Shown here: in pieces, positions 1-9,568 of the stretch | Numbering within the stretch: the stretch's first letter is position 1 | How the letters are laid out: each line of letters opens with the position of its first letter | Source: Saksenaea vasiformis B4078 | Taxonomy: Eukaryota; Mucoromycota; Mucoromycetes; Mucorales; Saksenaeaceae | Direction: 5' to 3' | Length of the DNA stretch: 64,000 nucleotides | Assembly (NCBI GenBank): GCA_000697055.1 | Contig: JNDT01001843.1 | Span: 1-64,000 of the forward strand | Translations under genes and position numbers: made by a program | The notes under the pieces: model-generated | What the model saw: the letters and a program-made list of their open reading frames with translations, nothing else | Told to the model about the DNA's origin: nothing | The model's database searches: none

Positions 1-1099
1 TAAGGTAATTGAACTGCCTCTTCCGCTTCGACTCCATCAGATGCAGTATTGACGCTCGAAGCTGCGCATGTTTTAGATCCACATCTTCCACCTCTTTCCA
101 ACGGAAGCGTAGTAGCTTCTTTCTACGGACAAGAATAATATATTCAGGAAACATATAAGAAATGATGCAGAATCAATGAAATGGACGAAAACCAACAAAT
201 CAGGGGCTTGTAAACCATATTCTGTCTTCTTCACCTCGTCGGCAACACCCATATTACACGCGCATCCATTTTTTTTATTATTTTGCCAATTTCTGAATTA
301 CCCAGCGTACCTTGTTGTATTAAACGTGCCTTTCAAGATCTTTCTAACTTTTTTCCCAAAACGGACTCATACCACTTCAGTGCATTGATTGATGGATTCA
401 GATCGTTATGTGCTGTACGACCGCGGAAACTTCACGGACATAAAATTAATCGTTGGGATCCGCATTTGACTGCAATCCATACCTGGGCACCTAAATGGGC
501 GCGTGGGCTCAGCCCATTTTTCTTATGGGCTCGCATTTGGTCCAATGGTGTGCCTGCTCTGGGTGCTTGAAGCGCGCAGTTTTATTGAGCAAGTTATCCA
601 ACACCTGCAGAATATGAAAGGACTAAGAAGGCAAATCAAATGAACCGTTACAAAAAGAACATCCCAAAGGACCAAAGGGTGTGAGAAGAGACGGTTTCGA
701 TGTTATTTTATATGCAGAGATGGGAAGATGGCTATTGCAGTTGTTCAACCTTGACGGAACTAGTAAACTGATTGGCTGGGAACAGTACTACTTTTGCAAG
801 GATGATGTTGCGTTTTATGGATATTTAACAGTACTATTTATAAGAAACGTGTAATAATCCCCAATCACTGCAAAATAGTGGTTGTAACGTCGTATATGGA
901 ATCCAGCGGGATACAGCGACAGATCTATAATCAATGCCGGCCACAACAGGTTTCTGATGCATGAGTTTACCTGTACCAATCATCATATACACATGAAAAG
1001 TGGAATCAATGGACCCGTAGTTCTATCTCCAATCGTATCCCCATTGGAAAGACTACGATGCTTATCGAGGCCCGCTTGAAAGTACTAAAGCGAGGTTTC
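1..1099. other. Non-coding flank with no recognisable gene
   Basis: I see no supported gene here. Short open frames at 176-388 and 283-570 lack recognisable domains or splice context. The only structure is the repeat copy at 410-508, annotated separately, and a short TA-dinucleotide run ending near 1118. The stretch lies on the 3' side of the minus-strand XPG-Fanzor gene, so it may be the tail or flank of that mobile element; this is inference. Confidence 0.5.
410..508 (-). repeat. Diverged copy A of Fanzor-associated non-coding repeat
   Basis: This roughly 99 bp segment aligns with 1121-1219 in the same orientation, at about three quarters identity by eye. Shared blocks include the exact string TACCTGGGCACCT and matching parts such as CCGCG and TTCACGG. 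No reading frame is shared or conserved between the copies, which argues for a non-coding element. The other copy sits just 3' of a Fanzor-type gene. This copy has no recognisable protein beside it, so it could be a solo remnant or element end. Confidence 0.55.
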
Positions 1100-1120
1100 T
1101 TATATATATATATATATCAG

Positions 1121-1219
1121 GTGCACTACGAGCCGCGAAAATTTCACGGGTATAAAAATTAGTTGTCGGACTGCGAACTTGACATGTTGCATACCTGGGC
1201 ACCTACGGGCGCAGAGGCC
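1121..1219 (-). ncRNA. Candidate Fanzor guide RNA (omega/fRNA-like) region
   Basis: On the minus strand this lies about 20 bases beyond the stop codon of the XPG-Fanzor gene. TnpB omegaRNAs and Fanzor fRNAs are usually encoded at or just beyond the nuclease gene. A diverged second copy exists at 410-508. The minus-strand text has short pairable pieces, for example GGGCCTCTGCGCCC, and just 5' of it a self-complementary CTACCTTGACAAGTAG; the downstream edge runs into a TA repeat. That it is a guide RNA is inference from position and repetition. It could instead be a transposon end or a repeated 3' UTR. Confidence 0.4.
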
Positions 1220-1241
1220 CAATCTACTTGTCAAGGTAGAT

Positions 1242-4200
1242 TCATTCTTGCAATTTCCTTGAAGGCCGAACGAAGCAGGCCGGACGTTTTCCATGTTTCA
1301 ACATAGAAGCGGCAATAGAGGATATGTTGTGTGCAGCACTTCCATCTCTGTGAAAAACCCCTTTGCACTTGTCGCAAGTGAGAACTCGGATAACTTCAGT
1401 TTCTCCATTATCCGCTGCCTTTTTACCTCGGTTGGCTACCCTCTTGAGGTACTTCACAAAAGATACTTTCCCACTTTGTATGCATCGGCAGCATATCTTT
1501 GACGTGCAGTACTCATCGACGCGGCATACCTGGTGTTGTTGGTCGCAAGCTTTGATATGCCGTCGTAGTCTGTTCGTCAGTCTGGTATTCATAGCGGATA
1601 GAGCCCCTGGTCGATGGCTGGTGGAAGTACCGTCTATACCGAGCGCAAACAAAATAGGTTTTCCCTGATCGCTGGTCGCATCTTGTTTTGTAGATTCGAT
1701 AATAACATGACAGGCTTTGTCGAGACTTGAGCATATGGATAGGGAGGTATCCCAGGATTTGCGCATGACAGACTTATTGCTGTAAAAGTTCCGTAAACGT
1801 AGCCCACGGCCTCCTTCCTGCCAAGCTCTGACATAGAGTAATAGCTTGTCTATGTTTGACACCTGAGAACCGCCGCCCAAAGTTGCTTCATCTTCGTCAA
1901 TGCCGTGTTTCGCTTCGCGATCCTGAAGCCACAGTCCATTCATCGTGCTTCATCCGTACAGCTCATTTCTCTTCAATGTAAGCTGCACTCCTTGTTTATC
2001 CGGCGCGGATGGCAAGAAAAACGATGCTGCGGCATATGTCTCTACAAAATCGAGGCCTACAACACCATCAAAGCCGGGAAGTATATCTGTTGCTTCTGTT
2101 TCCTTGCTCTGTCGTATTCTTTGACCGAGTGTTCGAACTTCTGGCAGGAATGGTGGCTTCTGGTGGAAGGATGGAGTACACCAGTCGGTGTATAACGTAA
2201 AAAGCCGTACACTGTCCGTTCGGAACATTGGTTTGGATGTATACCTTGGAAGCTTTGTACCGGGGGTACACTTGCGCAATTTCCTTGCGTAATCCCTTTT
2301 AGTCCTCTTCACGACATTATGCTGTCTTCCATCGATCGATGCCTTGACTGTGGGGTGAAACAGGAATGTAAAACTGTCTCCTCGCTTTCGGGCTGTCGCT
2401 TGCTGAGATTGATAGTTTTGCCACGAGCGTTTTAATCCGCCTTCTGTAACGGATAATGGTGAGGTTTCGTTGATCTTCGGACTGGTAATAACGCTTACCT
2501 CCGAGCCTCTGTCCAGTATAGAGATGCTGAATGTTTGTAAGCATTCGTATAACGTGTAGGTTGGTGAATGGTATGCAAACGTTACGACTAGGAGCAGTCG
2601 GGCATAGATGGTATGATATATCGTCTGGGCACTTTTCAAGGAACATTGCAAGTAAAGGTAAAAGCAAATAACCCTTCGTTTGCTTGTCTTCTTCACTTTC
2701 TTCATCGTGTTCTTCCTCTTCAATATATTGTACCTTCCTTTTCCCTTTCGATGAAGTCGGAATCTGTTCTTTTTCGCCCTTTCTTGGAAGTGGACGTGAC
2801 ACGGCTAAACAGTCGAACAGATCAACGGTATCATTGTGAGTACTGGACTTGTACAAAACATCTTCCAAGGAACTTCTCTGTTCACAAATAAATTCTTCTA
2901 TGTCAGATTTGACATGATCGCTGGCGTTATCAATCAGCAGCTGCACATCGTTGCACTATTCAACGTTGACAATGGATTCCTGTGTTTTGCTGATGTCGAG
3001 AGGTATATACCAGATCCTGGCAAAAATGTACTCTGCAAAGGCCTTGTGTCCTGGTCAGCCGTCCGGCACCGTTGCCTTGCGTCGAAGCTTGGCAGAGACA
3101 TCGTCTACGGACATACTCTTTCCTTCTGCAGCGACTTTCTGTACCATCTTTTTTATCTCCGTCACAAACTTGGTAATTGATCTGCGCGTCGCAGGATCAA
3201 GCTTCCGAACAGCTTGCTCAACTCCTGTCAGAGACGGACATACGTTGGATTTGTTGCCTGTTGCTTCATCCAGCAGGTATTGAGGGAAGTTATCGTCTCT
3301 CGGCCACTTTTGCGGCCTTTGCGCCTTGTGCTTTAACCGAACACCGATATAGTCTACTGAGTTCTTTATAAAGTTCGAAAGGACGCATTGTCGAAAAGCA
3401 ATAACGAGTTCTTCAGCCATCTGGGCAACAACAGCGGTACGGTACTGGTATGAAGGTAGCCGTGGAACTTCGCTCCATTTGTTTCTGTAACCAAGAAACC
3501 ATACTTTCCGTGCGTATAGCAAAGTATTCTTGAGCTCCGGCGCGTCGCCCATGAGCGAGACCAATGAGGTTACACTGCTGTCTTCGGGGTGGGCAATGTA
3601 AGTGTTCGGGTTTTGAACAATACCATTCGCCGGCAAGTAAGCATCTTCAACAGCTGGCGAGTGCATGATATATGGTAGCCTGTTTGGTTTCGCCCCTGAA
3701 TATCTCATGGCCATGAGAATGATCCATTGCCAAGTATTGCTGGCATTATCCCGTTGCCCTTCACCTCCTTTCATGTCAGATTGAAAGAAAGCGCGAAATA
3801 CCTTCTCTCTGCATTCGATGTTTAACGTCATGGCCGCGCGCAGAGCAATGTTCGCCATTTGTAGAGCGATTTGTCGTACCAATGACATGTCAGCTACTTC
3901 TTTTTGGATAACGTCGCAAATGATATTGGTCTGAAGCACTGCGATATGTTGATCAGAGGGGAATCGCTGGCTAGCAGCTGATAGGACAGACGAGTACAAT
4001 CCCGAAGTTAAGATTATCGTCGCTCTCGACATCTCGTGCAAACTGATATCTTCTCCACTGGAAGCGTCCTCGTACGAAATTCGCTTTGGGTCCTCTTTCT
4101 GCTTGCTCGATCCAGCTTTGGCACTGGAGGCTTTTCTGCGCTTGTTACGCTTTTTTCCTGCCGAGGGCGTTTTCTTCGGTGGCCGGTAAACTCGAAGCGG

Positions 4201-5679
4201 GCCTGTTTCCTCTTCGACGGTGTGGGATTTAGCTATATGACGAGCTTCGACGAAGGTGTAGCGACTACTTGCTTGTTGGTTTGAAGCAGGAGCTGTGACT
4301 CTTTGTACAGGACTTTCTTCGCTGTTGACCTTTTTCAGGATGTCTACATCAACTACACGCATACACGGATAGCCAAATCGGATCTTTGCGCCGGTACCAG
4401 TAAGACTGATAACAGGGGCGCAGAATTGGTGCCACGCGATTCTGAATCGATCCGCTTCCATCTCTGAGATTCTGTCGAGGCAGTCGATCACCTTCAGATA
4501 ACGGTTATTTACCATTTAACTATTTTTCTTTCTTATCTTTACATTATTCACTATATCGTCTGCAAAGGTCAAATCCGCACCGGTATTGATGACAGCCTTC
4601 TTAATCGTTGCAAAGAATTTATTCTTTATATTGCGGGCGTAATCGTTTCCAGAATTGCACCAATAGCTATCAGACGTCTTTCGGCCTAACTGATGTCAGA
4701 TTTTGAGCTAGGAAACTCCATATAAGTACCAGGATATAGTCGTTTTCGTCGGTTTTTCTCAAATCAAGCTTATCAAGCAGCAATGCCTTCGTTGTCACAC
4801 GACCCGGAAAGTTATTTTTGCCGTAATCAATGCGTAGCACCCTCTGTGAAAATAAGATAAAATAAGCATGCGTTCGTGGTTTACTCTTACTTACTATAGT
4901 TTCCAAAGCACCACCGTACATGAATAAATCACCGTCAGGCAAATATATTGCCGCTTTAAGCGCTGTTTGGTGAGCCAGTGCCGCAACGCAAGGATCGGCC
5001 TCGAATGGTGCACGAAAATACAGGTTACGTTGATTGGTCTGTGACGAGTACTTGTGAAATCCCAGGGAAGAGAGGTGCTACATATAGCATGAGCATCCAG
5101 TAACTGTTACTTATTGGACGTACCTGCTCTATGGAATCTTTGATTTCAACGGAAAATCGGACCCATGCTCGCGCTTGCTTTTCGAACCTTTTCTGGTGTT
5201 TTTCCTTATTCAACCCTTTCATTGCTGCGACTCGAGCAGCATTGAACGCAGCTTTTGATTTCTGTTTTCGAATTTTATTCGTAGGCTGTTTGGCAGGTAG
5301 TTGATCACCATCGATGACAAGACAGATTCGGCGATTAGGGAACCTGTGGCTGCGCAGCAAATCGACACGGTCTCTCATAGCTTGTACAAATTCAAATACG
5401 CGCTCCTGTTCATTACAGGTTGGCAATGACAGTGATACGCCTGTGCAAAATGCATTAGAACTACGTGAGGCAAAGATGGTATTGCATACCTTCACGATGT
5501 TGTACCCGTAGTTTGAGCAGATCCTGGCTCACAGTTTCTTGTAGCAATGTAAAGAACACAGCACATACATCGACAAAAAAAATCTCGACACTGTGGTCGT
5601 CCAGATAGCTTACGACAGAAGTCGTTTCGTGATAGGCTCCTGCAGAATTTGCGAAGTGATGGAGGCCTTTGATACCCAT
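1242..5679 (-). pseudogene. XPG/FEN1-like nuclease fused to Fanzor/TnpB-like RuvC nuclease
   Basis: The start MGIKGL at 5679 is typical of XPG/FEN1 proteins. The XPG part keeps an early Asp (FFVDVC), IDGDQLPAK, EADPCVAALA, PDGDLFMYGG and GNDYARN. A roughly 470-residue helical, partly Lys-rich middle follows. The C-terminal part has RuvC-I-like VVGLDFVETY, VDEYCTSKICCRC, a second zinc pair LTCDKCK and RuvC-III HRDGSAAHN, and ends 'RP...' like other Fanzors. In-frame introns near 4500 and 2945-3068 would remove the TAA, TGA and TAG seen in genomic frame, and an intron near 2490-2550 fixes the frame change. One in-frame TGA (1950-1952) remains, hence the pseudogene call. A weak-donor 66-nt intron could also remove it. 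Length would be about 1,300 residues. Some donors are non-consensus, and the one-gene reading is inference. Confidence 0.6.
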
Positions 5680-6278
5680 GAAAAATAAAAAGAGAAAGAG
5701 AAGGGTGCGAAGCCAATGATTCTCATTTTTCATTCTTTTATTGTATTTTATTTTGTTGCTTGTTGATCTATCCAACTCCAATTACTTTGGTCTAATATTG
5801 TCATTACTCACCACAGGGATTTCCATGAACTAACGCCCTGTTGGTGGTCACTGTGAAACCGCTCTAAAACCACTATCATGGTCATGATCTGGAGCTGCGA
5901 AGATTTATCAAATTTTCTGTAGGACCTGATACGCTTTCGCAAAGAGAGATTAGGGACATAATATTTAGGACTTGGATGCAAAGTATTGGCAAATGTGCAA
6001 TATCGCTTACCTGCATGTCACATAGCCATAATGGAGCCCGCATCTAATGTCCGAAGGACAGGAGTAGGGGCAGGCTTTTTTTTTTACTATTATTTTGAAA
6101 CAGGTTCACTTCTTCCGATAGGAAAATAAGAAACCATCACTGGACCACATCAATGTCAAAAATGGAACATGGTCCTTATTCGAGACATTGTTACTCCTTC
6201 CGACCAGACGTGAAATCAAATAATGTTGTGGTGAATCCGAGAGCACAAACACCTCCACTGTTAATTCATAGTAGCTTT
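5680..6278. other. Gap upstream of the XPG-Fanzor gene
   Basis: This stretch probably contains the promoter and leader of the XPG-Fanzor gene. At roughly 6150-6260 on the minus strand there may be one further exon of the truncated transposase-like gene (reading ...VFVLSDSPQHYLISR...). I see no independent gene. Confidence 0.35.
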
Positions 6279-7189
6279 TCATATATATACATTCCTCATA
6301 TAGTCACTATTACTACTGGAAAGATTGCATTCAATTATAATTATATTTACCTTATAAAACCCATTGTTAGTCTGCTGTTCTATAAGTCTTCGCGAAGAAA
6401 TCAATTGGTCATCATGCAGCCGGTAAGTCTGCCTAAACGTATCGTGCCACCAGCGATAGACTTGTGCCGAAGTAATGTCATACTCGGGAAATTGGTCAAC
6501 AACATCTTGGTACAGCGACTGTGTATCTTGATGTTGTGCGTTCTCAGCAATATATGGACGAACTTCTGCTGGCATCACTCGTAATGATTGCGGCTCAGGA
6601 CGGGGGTGACACAGTGGATGATAAACCTCCAAGCGAATGCATTGGTGGTCATAGTCGATCAAACCACTGATCAGTCCCTTACAATCGTAAGTAGTGACAC
6701 GAGTATGAAACCGCCTGCGTTGATCCTCAGGGACATGGCTCTGTGCATCTCTATCTTGCGAGCAAGCAGCATAAAATAACACGCCACGCTTCAACTGCGG
6801 ATCAGTGATTTTTTTGACATAATAGTTATATCCATCACAAAGCTCCACAGCAGTAATGACCTTCCTCACAATGTCATTCTCAGTCAATTGAGCTAATTCG
6901 TCAGAAAGTCTGACAGCACCGCTGAAGCAAAACCGACTGTTATCAGTTTGCATATCTGTTGTTTCTTCTGGTAGAATGAAATGCTCAGCAGATCCTCCAA
7001 AAGAATCGACTGCACCAAAGGAACAGGATCCCTTGTTCCTGGATATCGATTTATGCAGTCTTGACACGTCTTGTACTGGCGCCTTCTTCCAACAAACTGG
7101 GTACTTGCCTTGTGCGTTTTACAGCACTTGCAATACACCATAGTGTTCTCTTCGCGCTGGTTGAGATTCGTAGCTAAATTTTCGGACAT
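6279..7189 (-). pseudogene. Truncated transposase-like protein, N-terminal part
   Basis: The protein opens at 7189 with a small Cys motif (CKCC...TCQDC), often seen at the start of fungal transposon proteins, then moves after an intron into a frame ending near 6342. The later part has a Cys-containing strand (YDCKGLISGLI), His residues in a CHPRPEP context and a stretch ending WWHDTF...DQLISS. This order resembles the N-terminal half of MULE-type or related fungal transposases. A donor follows 'NNGFYK', and I see only a short continuation near 6150-6260, so the catalytic domain is missing. It lies on the same strand, 600 bases upstream of the XPG-Fanzor gene. The family call is tentative. Confidence 0.4.
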
Positions 7190-7421
7190 GTTTGGTAGAA
7201 GAAAAAGCAGCTAAACACGGTGATAACGGAAAAACACAAAGAAATACGGGTGAGCGATTTTTCAACCGGATAATATTATGCCGCCGTAAATTTTCTGCAG
7301 TCCGTATGGCAAGTATATATATCGGATTAACCACGTGACTTTGAAGCGCTGTCTTTTTTTTTAAAAAAAAACGGGAGAAGTATCCCTCTTGCGTTACGTA
7401 AAAACATCTTCCGTTTGAACC

Positions 7422-9568
7422 ATGTCAATCACACCAGTGACGGAGGAAAACAGAGCCAAAGCTGAAAAGATTAAAGCGGAAGCAAATTCTTTGTTTGCAG
7501 GTAGTTCAGGCAGTATAACTTCATCGACGCTGGTCTGAACACCTGCCTAGGCAAACGTTTTCCGGAAGCCATTGAGAAGTATACAGAAGCCATCGAGATC
7601 AATCCCAATGTTGCTACTTATTATACCAATCGTGCCTTCTGCCATCTGAAACTAGAAGCTTATGGCTATGCGATCGCGTAAGTTGATGGTGTGCCTTTCT
7701 CGTCTCATCGTATATTTTAGTGATGCTGATAAGGCATTGACAATCGATCCGACACTGGCAAAGGTAGATAGTCTCAACAAGCATAAATCTTCATGTCTAA
7801 TGTGTTATGACATCTATTCTAGGCAAACTACCGCCGTGCATCAGCCAATATGGCATTGGGGAAGTTTAAGGAAGCTTTGAGAGATCTGAAAATGGCAAGT
7901 GTTGCGCGCAGCAATGCATTGATAATCCTTTGTTTCTTACGTAATTGGCATTGTAGGTTGTAAAACGTGCGCCAGGAGACAAGGATGCGAAAGCAAAACT
8001 AGATGAATGCGCAAAAATTGTGAAACGAATCGAATTCGAGAAAGCGATTGAGGTACAGTGAACTATCTCACGAAGAATTTATGTCCTGATTCCACAAATT
8101 AGCATGATGACCAGATACGAAGCGTAGCCGATTCATTGGATGTCGATACAATGAGTACGTGTAATCGTGCCTTTACAGTGACCTGACTTGGTTCCTGTAG
8201 CTGTGGAGCCTGCATATGACGGTCCTAGAATTAGTGAGGAAACAAAGGAGATTGACGAAGAATTCGTGAAACAAATGATCCAGAGATTCAAAGATCAAAA
8301 GAAAATTCACAAGAAATTTGCATTCATGGTAAGCTGTTCTATACTTGCAACGAATTTAGCGCTTGAACTACGTCATACAGATCATTTTGGCTATCCGTAA
8401 CATGATGCTGAAAGAACCTTCGTTGATTGATGTAAGCGTGCCAAGCGATGGTAAATTGACTGTATGCGGTGATGTACATGGTATGTACAACAGTAGGACC
8501 ACAGGTGTTTTTCTCACATATCATTCTAGGTCAATTCTACGATTTCATCAACATCTTCGACACCAACGGATATCCATCGCTAAAGCATGCTTATCTCTTT
8601 AACGGCGATTTTGTGGATCGTGGCAGCTTCTCAGTCGAAGTCATTCTCACTCTGTTCGCTTACAAATGGCTCTATCCTAAGCATCTTTATCTGGCTCGTG
8701 GTAATCATGAGACAGATAACATGAACAAGGTGTACGGTTTTGAGGGCGAGGTGAAAGCGAAGTTCAGTGAAATGATGTTCAAGGTTTGTGACAAGTCGAT
8801 CCTGCGTTTTAGCTGTAAAGTGAACACATGCATCTACAGCTGTTTTCAGAGACTTTCAATGCCTTGCCCTTGGCACATGTCATTGGACAGAAGATCCTGG
8901 TGGTTCATGGTGGACTTTTCTCGAGAGATGATGTGACGTTGGACGACATACGTAAAATCGATCGTCTTGCGCTTCGCCAGCCTGGAAATGAAGGTAGGCC
9001 ACCAGTCATAACAAAGCAGGTTTACTGACGTTTAATGGTCAGGTCTCATGTGTGAGTTGCTTTGGTCTGATCCTCAACCTCAGCCTGGTCGAGAACCAAG
9101 TAAACGTGGTGTTGGTATACAATTTGGCCCCGACGTGACAAAGAACTTCTTGGAAAGAAACAACTTGGGTATAATGCAACGAACTATGCCGATCGATGTA
9201 CTGATTCATTTTGTTTCTAGATATGTTGATTCGAAGTCATGAAGTGAAAGAGGAAGGATACGTTATTGAACACGATGGAAAATGCGTTACTGTATTCTCT
9301 GCACCAAATTATTGGTAAGTTCTTACGATCTCCTATTCATCTAAAATTCATTTCTCTCTTTCCAGTGACACTGTGGGTAATAAAGGTGCATGGATCAACA
9401 TTACACCTGATATGAAGCTCGATTATGTGACATTTGAGGCTGTGGTATGTTGAAATTTTAGGAGGAACCGGAAGGGATTATTGACAAGCCATGTTCTTTT
9501 CATAGCCGCATCCTAATGTTCGGCCGATGCAATATGCTAGTCAATTCAGTGGGTTACTGGGGATGTAA
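7422..9568 (+). CDS. PPT1: Serine/threonine protein phosphatase 5 (TPR + PP2A-like)
   Basis: Spliced exons begin [16 protein letters not shown] and encode TPR repeats ([21 protein letters not shown]), then a PPP-family catalytic domain. That domain has [14 protein letters not shown] (canonical GDxVDRG), RGNHE, HGGLFS and FSAPNYC. The end [18 protein letters not shown] is typical of PP5. Family members dephosphorylate Ser/Thr residues and work with Hsp90 through the TPR domain. Exon 1 is 7422-7500, followed by a 50-nt intron (7501-7550). At least ten short introns are present and no disruption was seen. It is divergent from the transposase-like gene, whose start lies 230 bases away, and convergent with the next gene. 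Confidence 0.93.

Follow-up and report, generated by a model that had tools for sequence, protein, structure and literature searches.

A FEN1/EXO1-type nuclease joined to a Fanzor-type nuclease in a decayed transposon copy of Saksenaea vasiformis

The fused gene

We have analyzed the first 64,000 nucleotides of contig JNDT01001843.1 of Saksenaea vasiformis B4078 (GCA_000697055.1), hereafter the window. It belongs to contig C401 of the 38.7-Mb assembly that we searched (G000), and all C-numbers below are contigs of this assembly. The minus strand of the window bears a gene that runs from an ATG at 5679 to a stop codon at 1244-1242 and joins, from the N-terminus to the C-terminus, a FEN1/EXO1-type nuclease domain, a middle region of ~670 residues and a Fanzor-type RuvC/zinc-finger domain. 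The fusion architecture is real, although the copy in the window has decayed. The encoded protein is predicted to be a single chain of ~1370 residues, in which a middle lobe separates a FEN1/EXO1-type 5′ nuclease from a Fanzor1-type RuvC nuclease that includes a zinc finger. On the minus strand, the FEN1/EXO1-type domain (4630-5679, residues 1 to ~300) is spread over five exons, retains seven of the seven expected acidic positions and carries a 1-nucleotide (nt) frameshift at ~4654. The middle region (2499-4491, ~664 residues), which we infer probably corresponds to the REC/WED-like lobe of the Fanzor half, contains two in-frame stops in the window copy. The Fanzor-type C-terminus (1242-2443) contains a single in-frame stop at 1950-1952 and includes D1103, E1282 and D1338 together with C1289, C1292, C1328 and C1331 (window protein numbering).

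All the motifs on which the first-pass annotation had based its proposal of a fusion were found in the minus-strand sequence: MGIKGL from 5679, EADPCVAALA and PDGDLFMYGG at ~5002-4910, GNDYARN at ~4650-4630, and VDEYCTSKICCRC, LTCDKCK and HRDGSAAHN, all three within ~1520-1320. The introns of the window gene model, computed from the offsets of spliced alignments, are located at 5489-5441, 5123-5051, 4894-4844, 4729-4686, 4542-4492 and 2498-2444. The one at 4542-4492, a GT-AG intron of 51 nt, removes an in-frame TAA that separates the FEN1 part from the middle region; both the TAA and the intron had been pointed out near 4500, and both are present. Among the matches listed in the spliced alignments, the intron occupies one position (residue 308) in C401, C289, C618, C545, C662, C57, C277, C501 and C542, with a counterpart at residue 305 in C280, while C265 is modelled otherwise, with a frameshift there. 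Since the intron is conserved among the copies, we infer splicing across 4400-4600.

Copies of the fusion within the genome

DNA and protein searches of the assembly revealed groups of copies at 76-97% DNA identity, at ~50% protein identity and at ~25-30%. We then built one profile for each of the three modules (FEN1 part, middle and Fanzor part) from a Lichtheimia hyalospora protein described below (P0002) and four copies of the S. vasiformis genome. The FEN1 profile matches 18 of the 23 merged loci at E 0.01, the remaining five being loci of a short element that is also described below. With profiles derived from these five fusions, four of them from the same genome, all three modules occur in the same order and on the same strand at 14 of the 18 loci (C232, C238, C277, C280, C289, C376, C395, C401, C428, C501, C545, C567, C618 and C662). 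Among these, the FEN1 module is reduced to its last part in C280 and C289, and the examined stretch stops inside the Fanzor module in C376 and C395. As for the four incomplete loci, C265 and C57 end at the contig end, C257 is without the middle region and C542 is a 5′ fragment. It is thus evident that the two halves are not always separate genes among homologs, since 14 loci keep them in order on one strand and the remaining four have suffered truncation or deletion. Two loci considered as stand-alone FEN1 genes, C637 and C226, were rejected; both FEN1 halves break off at contig ends.

Five copies (C232, C238, C376, C395 and C428) show the join without any intron. In these copies the last FEN1 motif (NDYxNN) abuts the start of the middle region in one frame, and the open frame spanning the join has 767-783 aa in C232, C238 and C376, 519 aa in C428 and 134 aa in C395.

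The Pfam family Cas12f1-like_TNB (TNB, PF07282) has at least 149 matches in this genome at E 0.01, with 150 of 388 candidates scored, so that the genome appears to bear a heavy load of Fanzor/TnpB-type sequences. At four other TNB loci among these matches (C531, C666, C382 and C525), no FEN1-profile match was found in the 3.5-4.1 kb upstream, and only C382 and C525 match the Fanzor profile of the fusion family at E 0.01.

Relatives in other organisms

The Pfam matches of the window copy are sub-threshold or near-threshold only, and relatives are therefore needed to support the fusion. When an alignment of two spliced fusions was searched against ~5.8 billion proteins, with 8000 candidates scored, one match was obtained at E 0.001. 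This is P0002 (L. hyalospora K492DRAFT_200548), a protein of 1416 aa that spans the whole fusion (E 3.4e-249, 100% query coverage, 28% identity), so that the two-domain order proposed by the first-pass annotation also exists beyond the S. vasiformis genome. The middle region alone as query gave one match, a 597-aa protein of Apophysomyces sp. BC1021 (P0001, 46% identity). Lichtheimia and Apophysomyces are both genera of Mucorales. A third protein search, with the end of P0002, returned nothing beyond the query itself. These searches depend on shared 5-residue words, and the absence of matches elsewhere carries little weight. No relatives were found in viral contigs (one scan, with P0002) or in plasmids.

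The two nuclease domains

We aligned five fusions (P0002, C662, C428, the window copy and C545) to examine the catalytic residues. In the FEN1 half, M1, G2, K4, G5, L6, D37, D103, E191, D193, D213, D215 and D282 (P0002 numbering) are invariant, including the seven metal-binding acidic positions that we take to be expected for FEN1/EXO1. A profile of the five fusions matches human EXO1 (PDB 3qea) at E 6.7e-10 over profile positions 73-247, whereas P0002 alone as query matches neither EXO1 nor SpuFz1, a Fanzor1 protein of Spizellomyces punctatus. Chance is excluded by this match to EXO1 together with the coverage of the whole fusion by P0002. Among the XPG-family loci of the host, the FEN1-part profile matches one of five (E 1.7e-4), and the best solved relative of the matched locus is EXO1.

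The Fanzor motif given in the main text of PMC3627910 is D-X(125,275)-[TS][TS]XX-C4 finger-X(5,50)-RD, and the window protein fits it exactly (D1103, T1285 S1286 K I C1289, C1292, C1328, C1331, R1337 D1338). All five aligned fusions have the RuvC D, E (in VDE) and D without exception. For SpuFz1 the triad is D383, E541 and D606, as described in the text of PMC10432273 and PMC11423790; the E of the fusion was equated with that of SpuFz1 by motif position and not by structure. The five-fusion profile matches SpuFz1 at E 0.0033, and in profile comparison the Fanzor part matches a further Fanzor open reading frame (ORF) from S. vasiformis (E 4.1e-6, probability 87). The TNB score of C662 (28.9 bits) is above the Pfam cut-off of 26.3 bits. 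A scan of NCBIfam gave no matches.

Decay and selection

The window copy contains three in-frame stops and one 1-nt frameshift and is therefore a pseudogene. Sister C289 has sense codons at all three stop positions. The first-pass annotation had drawn phase-correct introns throughout the gene, which does not hold: the stops at ~3055, ~2956 and 1950 are sense codons within exons of C289, and introns at 2900-3100 were rejected, C289 being open there apart from lesions of its own. Likewise, the splice drawn near 4650 to reach GNDYARN masks the 1-nt frameshift at ~4654; relatives read AERRLxxIxxMSGNDY there and use a different acceptor. The joins drawn near 4650 and at 2900-3100 are therefore lesions. 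What stands of the original proposal is the one-chain, two-domain architecture, which is supported by the copies and by P0002; what does not stand is a fully phase-correct gene model in the window.

In the distant group, some of the frameshifts called in the spliced alignments recur in each of the five copies and probably stem from the alignment itself, and every one of the five has private frameshifts as well. The C280 copy (~3511-5579 of C280_9445_17344) has its fused gene interrupted by an insertion, the translation of which reads like what we take to be a pogo/Tc1-type DDE transposase. The C545 copy (61821-68238 of the contig) is a mosaic, with residues 1-420 showing 75-92% DNA identity to C662 and residues 1021-1371 showing 81-90% to C501. 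These identities suggest module exchange between elements.

We estimated the ratio of nonsynonymous to synonymous substitution rates (dN/dS) in three segments for each of the 28 pairs that eight copies can form; in most pairs, at least one segment is saturated or missing. Among the deep pairs, dS is finite in every segment only for C618-C501, with dN/dS of 0.17, 0.22 and 0.23 in the FEN1, middle and Fanzor segments (dS 1.5, 1.3 and 0.8), and C277-C501, with 0.18, 0.21 and 0.21 (dS 1.5, 1.3 and 1.0). The pair C545-C662 gave 0.25 and 0.21, the third segment being saturated. FEN1-segment values with C289 are meaningless, as most of the FEN1 part is lost in that copy. These ratios indicate that both halves have been selectively kept on the deeper branches and that the recent copies are decaying.

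The element carrying the fused gene

The fused gene is carried on the minus strand by an element with terminal inverted repeats (TIRs), delimited at 1119-7314 (6196 bp), with TIR matches at 1119 and ~7311 in an imperfect TIR alignment. Its 5′ end is at 7314 (ACTTGCCATACGG...) and its 3′ end at 1119 (...GTGCACCT), and the end sequences of sister C618 are the same. The window element is flanked by a target-site duplication, GATATATAT, with one copy at 1110-1118, inside a TA run and weak on its own, and the other at 7315-7323 in the 5′ flank. The C618 element (85252-90857) is flanked by an exact 10-bp duplication, GTTGTACAAG. Both TIR ends and a duplication were thus found in two of the five copies tested, the window (9 bp, TA-rich) and C618 (10 bp, exact). 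At C662, C545 and C501 we found no duplication beside a 5′ TIR, and C265 yielded no 5′ TIR. We had also considered a Helitron-type 3′ end (hairpin then CTGA), which was dropped after the TIRs and target duplications emerged.

The sequence GTCACGTGGT is located 15-16 nt outside the 5′ TIR in the window (7339-7330) and in C618 (85226-85235) and occurs in none of the 19 3′ flanks. In 282 kb of loci, including repeated stretches, it occurs four times over both strands. It may reflect a target preference, a shared host repeat or a misjudged 5′ end. Because the window and C618 share GTCACGTGGT further out, the 5′ limit of the element is less sure than the 3′ limit.

A second ORF of the element (6279-7118, minus strand, 279 aa) has no Pfam match at E 0.1. 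Its relatives, which vary in orientation, lie within a few kb of fused genes on contigs C265, C501, C545, C57 and C662, and also ~1.5 kb or less from TNB matches at C531, C666 and C599. Upstream of C531 and C666, the search for a FEN1 part gave no match. The second ORF is possibly the second protein of these elements. No Mutator-like (MULE) transposase was recognized, either in the second ORF or in the other frames, which were scanned in part only. For this reason we term the element MuDR-like only. Fanzor1 elements described as MuDR-like in Rhizopus, Phycomyces and Mucor have 9-bp duplications and no MuDR transposase, according to the main text of PMC3627910. Taken together, the findings suggest that a MuDR-like TIR transposon, with the fused gene as its main gene, is present in the window as a decayed copy.

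The fused-gene element abuts a short repeat element at 410-1109 (minus strand), the longest frame of which has 75 aa and the 3′ ~100 nt of which resemble 1119-1221. This short TIR element family has at least 55 matches to window positions 300-1250 (40 of 73 candidates scored). The short element is probably interrupted by the fused-gene element (nesting). When the flanks are joined, they match the short element only 3′ of the junction, the 5′ side offering just TTAATCCGATATA, by eye. On the plus strand, 8182-8936 of the window contains pieces of a PPP5-type serine/threonine phosphatase gene, which probably belong to the host.

A candidate guide RNA at the 3′ end

The 3′ end of the element (1119-1225, minus strand) contains a candidate guide-RNA scaffold resembling an omega RNA, with modest and partly conflicting support. 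The terminal ~100 nt of the element are found again in other fused-gene copies and at the 3′ ends of the short elements (at least 55 matches, 11 of them aligned). The candidate fold consists of a closing stem formed by AGGTGCCC and the terminus and of two hairpins. Across 20 sequences (8 fused-gene copies and 12 short elements), 87.5% of the cells are paired, compared with 32-52% in slid controls, and both sides are changed in four pairs (9 cells). The observed value was reached by 1 of 500 shuffles for the covariation score, 1 of 500 for the cells with both sides changed and 3 of 500 for the percentage paired, although related sequences can outdo shuffles even without structure. Other results are less favorable. 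The number of covarying pairs and of pair types is unremarkable (reached by 57 and 407 of 500 shuffles), single-sequence folds of six 3′ ends barely surpass those of shuffled sequences (z from +0.21 to -1.71), and RNAalifold retains one hairpin only. No match for the candidate scaffold was found in Rfam. Alternatively, the terminal repeats could result from constraints at the DNA level, e.g., transposase binding. A guide RNA encoded by the 3′ end of the element is therefore put forward as a weakly supported candidate.

Discussion

Fanzors perform RNA-guided DNA cutting, as described in the text of PMC10432273. The explanation that we favor, and consider somewhat probable, is that the window holds a decayed MuDR-like element whose fused nuclease would make an RNA-guided cut followed by processing of the 5′ ends. 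From what is known of the family, the Fanzor half would take an RNA from the 3′ end of the element as its guide and cut the empty donor or allelic site. The tethered 5′ nuclease might then trim or resect the 5′ ends, or remove flaps; resection is suggested by the match to EXO1. Repair would thereby be routed through homologous recombination, and the element would be copied back from the sister or homolog. Tentatively, the fusion might be a natural “cut-and-resect” machine, in which an RNA-guided nuclease with a built-in EXO1/FEN1-type 5′ nuclease has been selected across a fungal transposon family and commits breaks to homologous repair. The role of Fanzors for their transposons is unsettled, and a FEN1 fusion with both halves under selection points to end resection after the cut and homologous repair, an idea that the fusion makes directly testable. 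Laboratory fusions of RNA-guided nucleases with exonucleases exist, and the FEN1-Fanzor protein is a natural counterpart of these.

Several results count against this explanation. In Pfam, XPG_I scores of 16.5 bits (window exon), 16.3 bits (C662) and 15.9 bits (P0002) fall below the cut-off of 24.9 bits, and we therefore name the domain FEN1/EXO1-type instead of placing it in that family. No GIG helix-hairpin signature, a motif that is presumably usual after the last Asp of the FEN1 family, was seen by eye past this Asp, where the sequence reads SGNDYxxNI...SFATI... In the Fanzor half, TNB scores are below the cut-off in the window copy (24.0 bits) and in P0002 (22.7 bits), and residues 1370-1374 of P0002 read CEHNN, the rear pair of the zinc finger being altered and the fourth Cys lost. 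The AlphaFold predictions for exons 6 and 7 are too poor to use (predicted local distance difference test scores of 30 and 36). At least one lesion is found in every copy of the S. vasiformis genome for which a spliced reading was seen. With regard to selection, the two pairs with low dN/dS are not independent, C618 and C277 being near-identical, and close pairs are relaxed (0.75 and 0.74 in C401-C265; 0.62, 0.61 and 0.28 in C618-C277; 0.53 in the middle and 0.44 in the Fanzor segment of C401-C289). What the sequence shows is the order of the modules, their conservation, the catalytic residues, the selection on both halves and the element ends in two copies; the mechanism itself should be read as a proposal.

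Other explanations deserve to be weighed. The FEN1-type domain might serve transposition by clearing 5′ flaps or overhangs at gapped insertion junctions, with the Fanzor half acting independently and the fusion being a convenience of packaging. Insertion of cut-and-paste TIR elements is expected to leave gaps with overhanging 5′ ends at the junctions, 5′ flaps are substrates of FEN1-family enzymes, and the fused gene does lie within a TIR element that shows 9-10 bp duplications in two copies. Yet host FEN1/EXO1 should do this job already, we know of no other TIR elements carrying FEN1, and among the loci read FEN1 occurs without the Fanzor half only at cut loci or in fragment copies; we regard this role as rather unlikely. 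We think it quite unlikely that the domain acts on RNA or R-loops, trimming the 5′ end of the guide or the displaced strand and thus maturing the guide complex. Although 5′ nucleases of the FEN1 superfamily can act on 5′ single-stranded ends and the candidate RNA is directly 3′ of the fused gene, the best-matching solved protein, EXO1, is an exonuclease that acts on DNA, and the RNA is itself a candidate.

The matches to TNB and SpuFz1 are weak, and P0002 has a partly altered zinc finger, as would be consistent with a Fanzor half that has given up RNA-guided cutting for a DNA-binding or structural role, leaving the FEN1 half as the working enzyme. The invariant RuvC D, E and D of the five aligned fusions argue against this, as does the dN/dS of the Fanzor segment, which in both informative pairs is about as low as that of the FEN1 segment, and such a loss of function seems to us improbable. 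Finally, a FEN1-like and a Fanzor-like gene could be neighbors that travel together in one element and are wrongly joined by the gene model, given that a TAA stands between the halves of the window copy unless the 51-nt intron is spliced. The single intron-free frame across the join in five copies, the existence of P0002 as one protein and the recurrence of the intron position among copies make this extremely improbable; separate neighboring genes were rejected on the one-frame copies and P0002.

In the literature searched (texts without additional files), no paper was found that names both Fanzor and XPG, or TnpB, fusion and XPG together, and prior mention is possible. In the text of PMC11071296, “Fanzor flap endonuclease homologs (Fendons)” is a label for viral genes, and no fusion is described there. 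ROr-4, PBl-3 and MCi-4, the MuDR-like Fanzor1 elements of Mucorales (Bao and Jurka 2013, PMC3627910), resemble the fused-gene element in their TIRs, their 9-bp duplications, their occurrence in Mucorales and the absence of any reported MuDR transposase; the comparison is with the main text, in which “XPG” and “FEN” do not occur, the protein sequences being in additional files. The EXO1/FEN1/XPG nucleases are like the fusion in the MGxKGL start, the seven acidic positions and the order of the N and I regions, and differ from it in that here a Fanzor is joined, XPG_I stays sub-cut-off and the GIG signature goes unrecognized by eye. SpuFz1 shares a comparable spacing of the RuvC acids (D383-E541-D606 vs. 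D1103-E1282-D1338 here), the four-Cys finger and its place as cargo of a mobile element, which, as described in the text of PMC10432273 and PMC11423790, also has “ghost” copies without the ORF. The fusion differs from SpuFz1 by an additional N-terminal FEN1/EXO1-type nuclease of ~300 residues, by the very low sequence similarity (E 0.0033 over ~90 positions) and by a guide RNA that is only a candidate. The L. hyalospora protein, annotated as “hypothetical protein” with no Pfam domain listed and 28% identical to C662, is the same three-module protein as the one described here and is open throughout as annotated.

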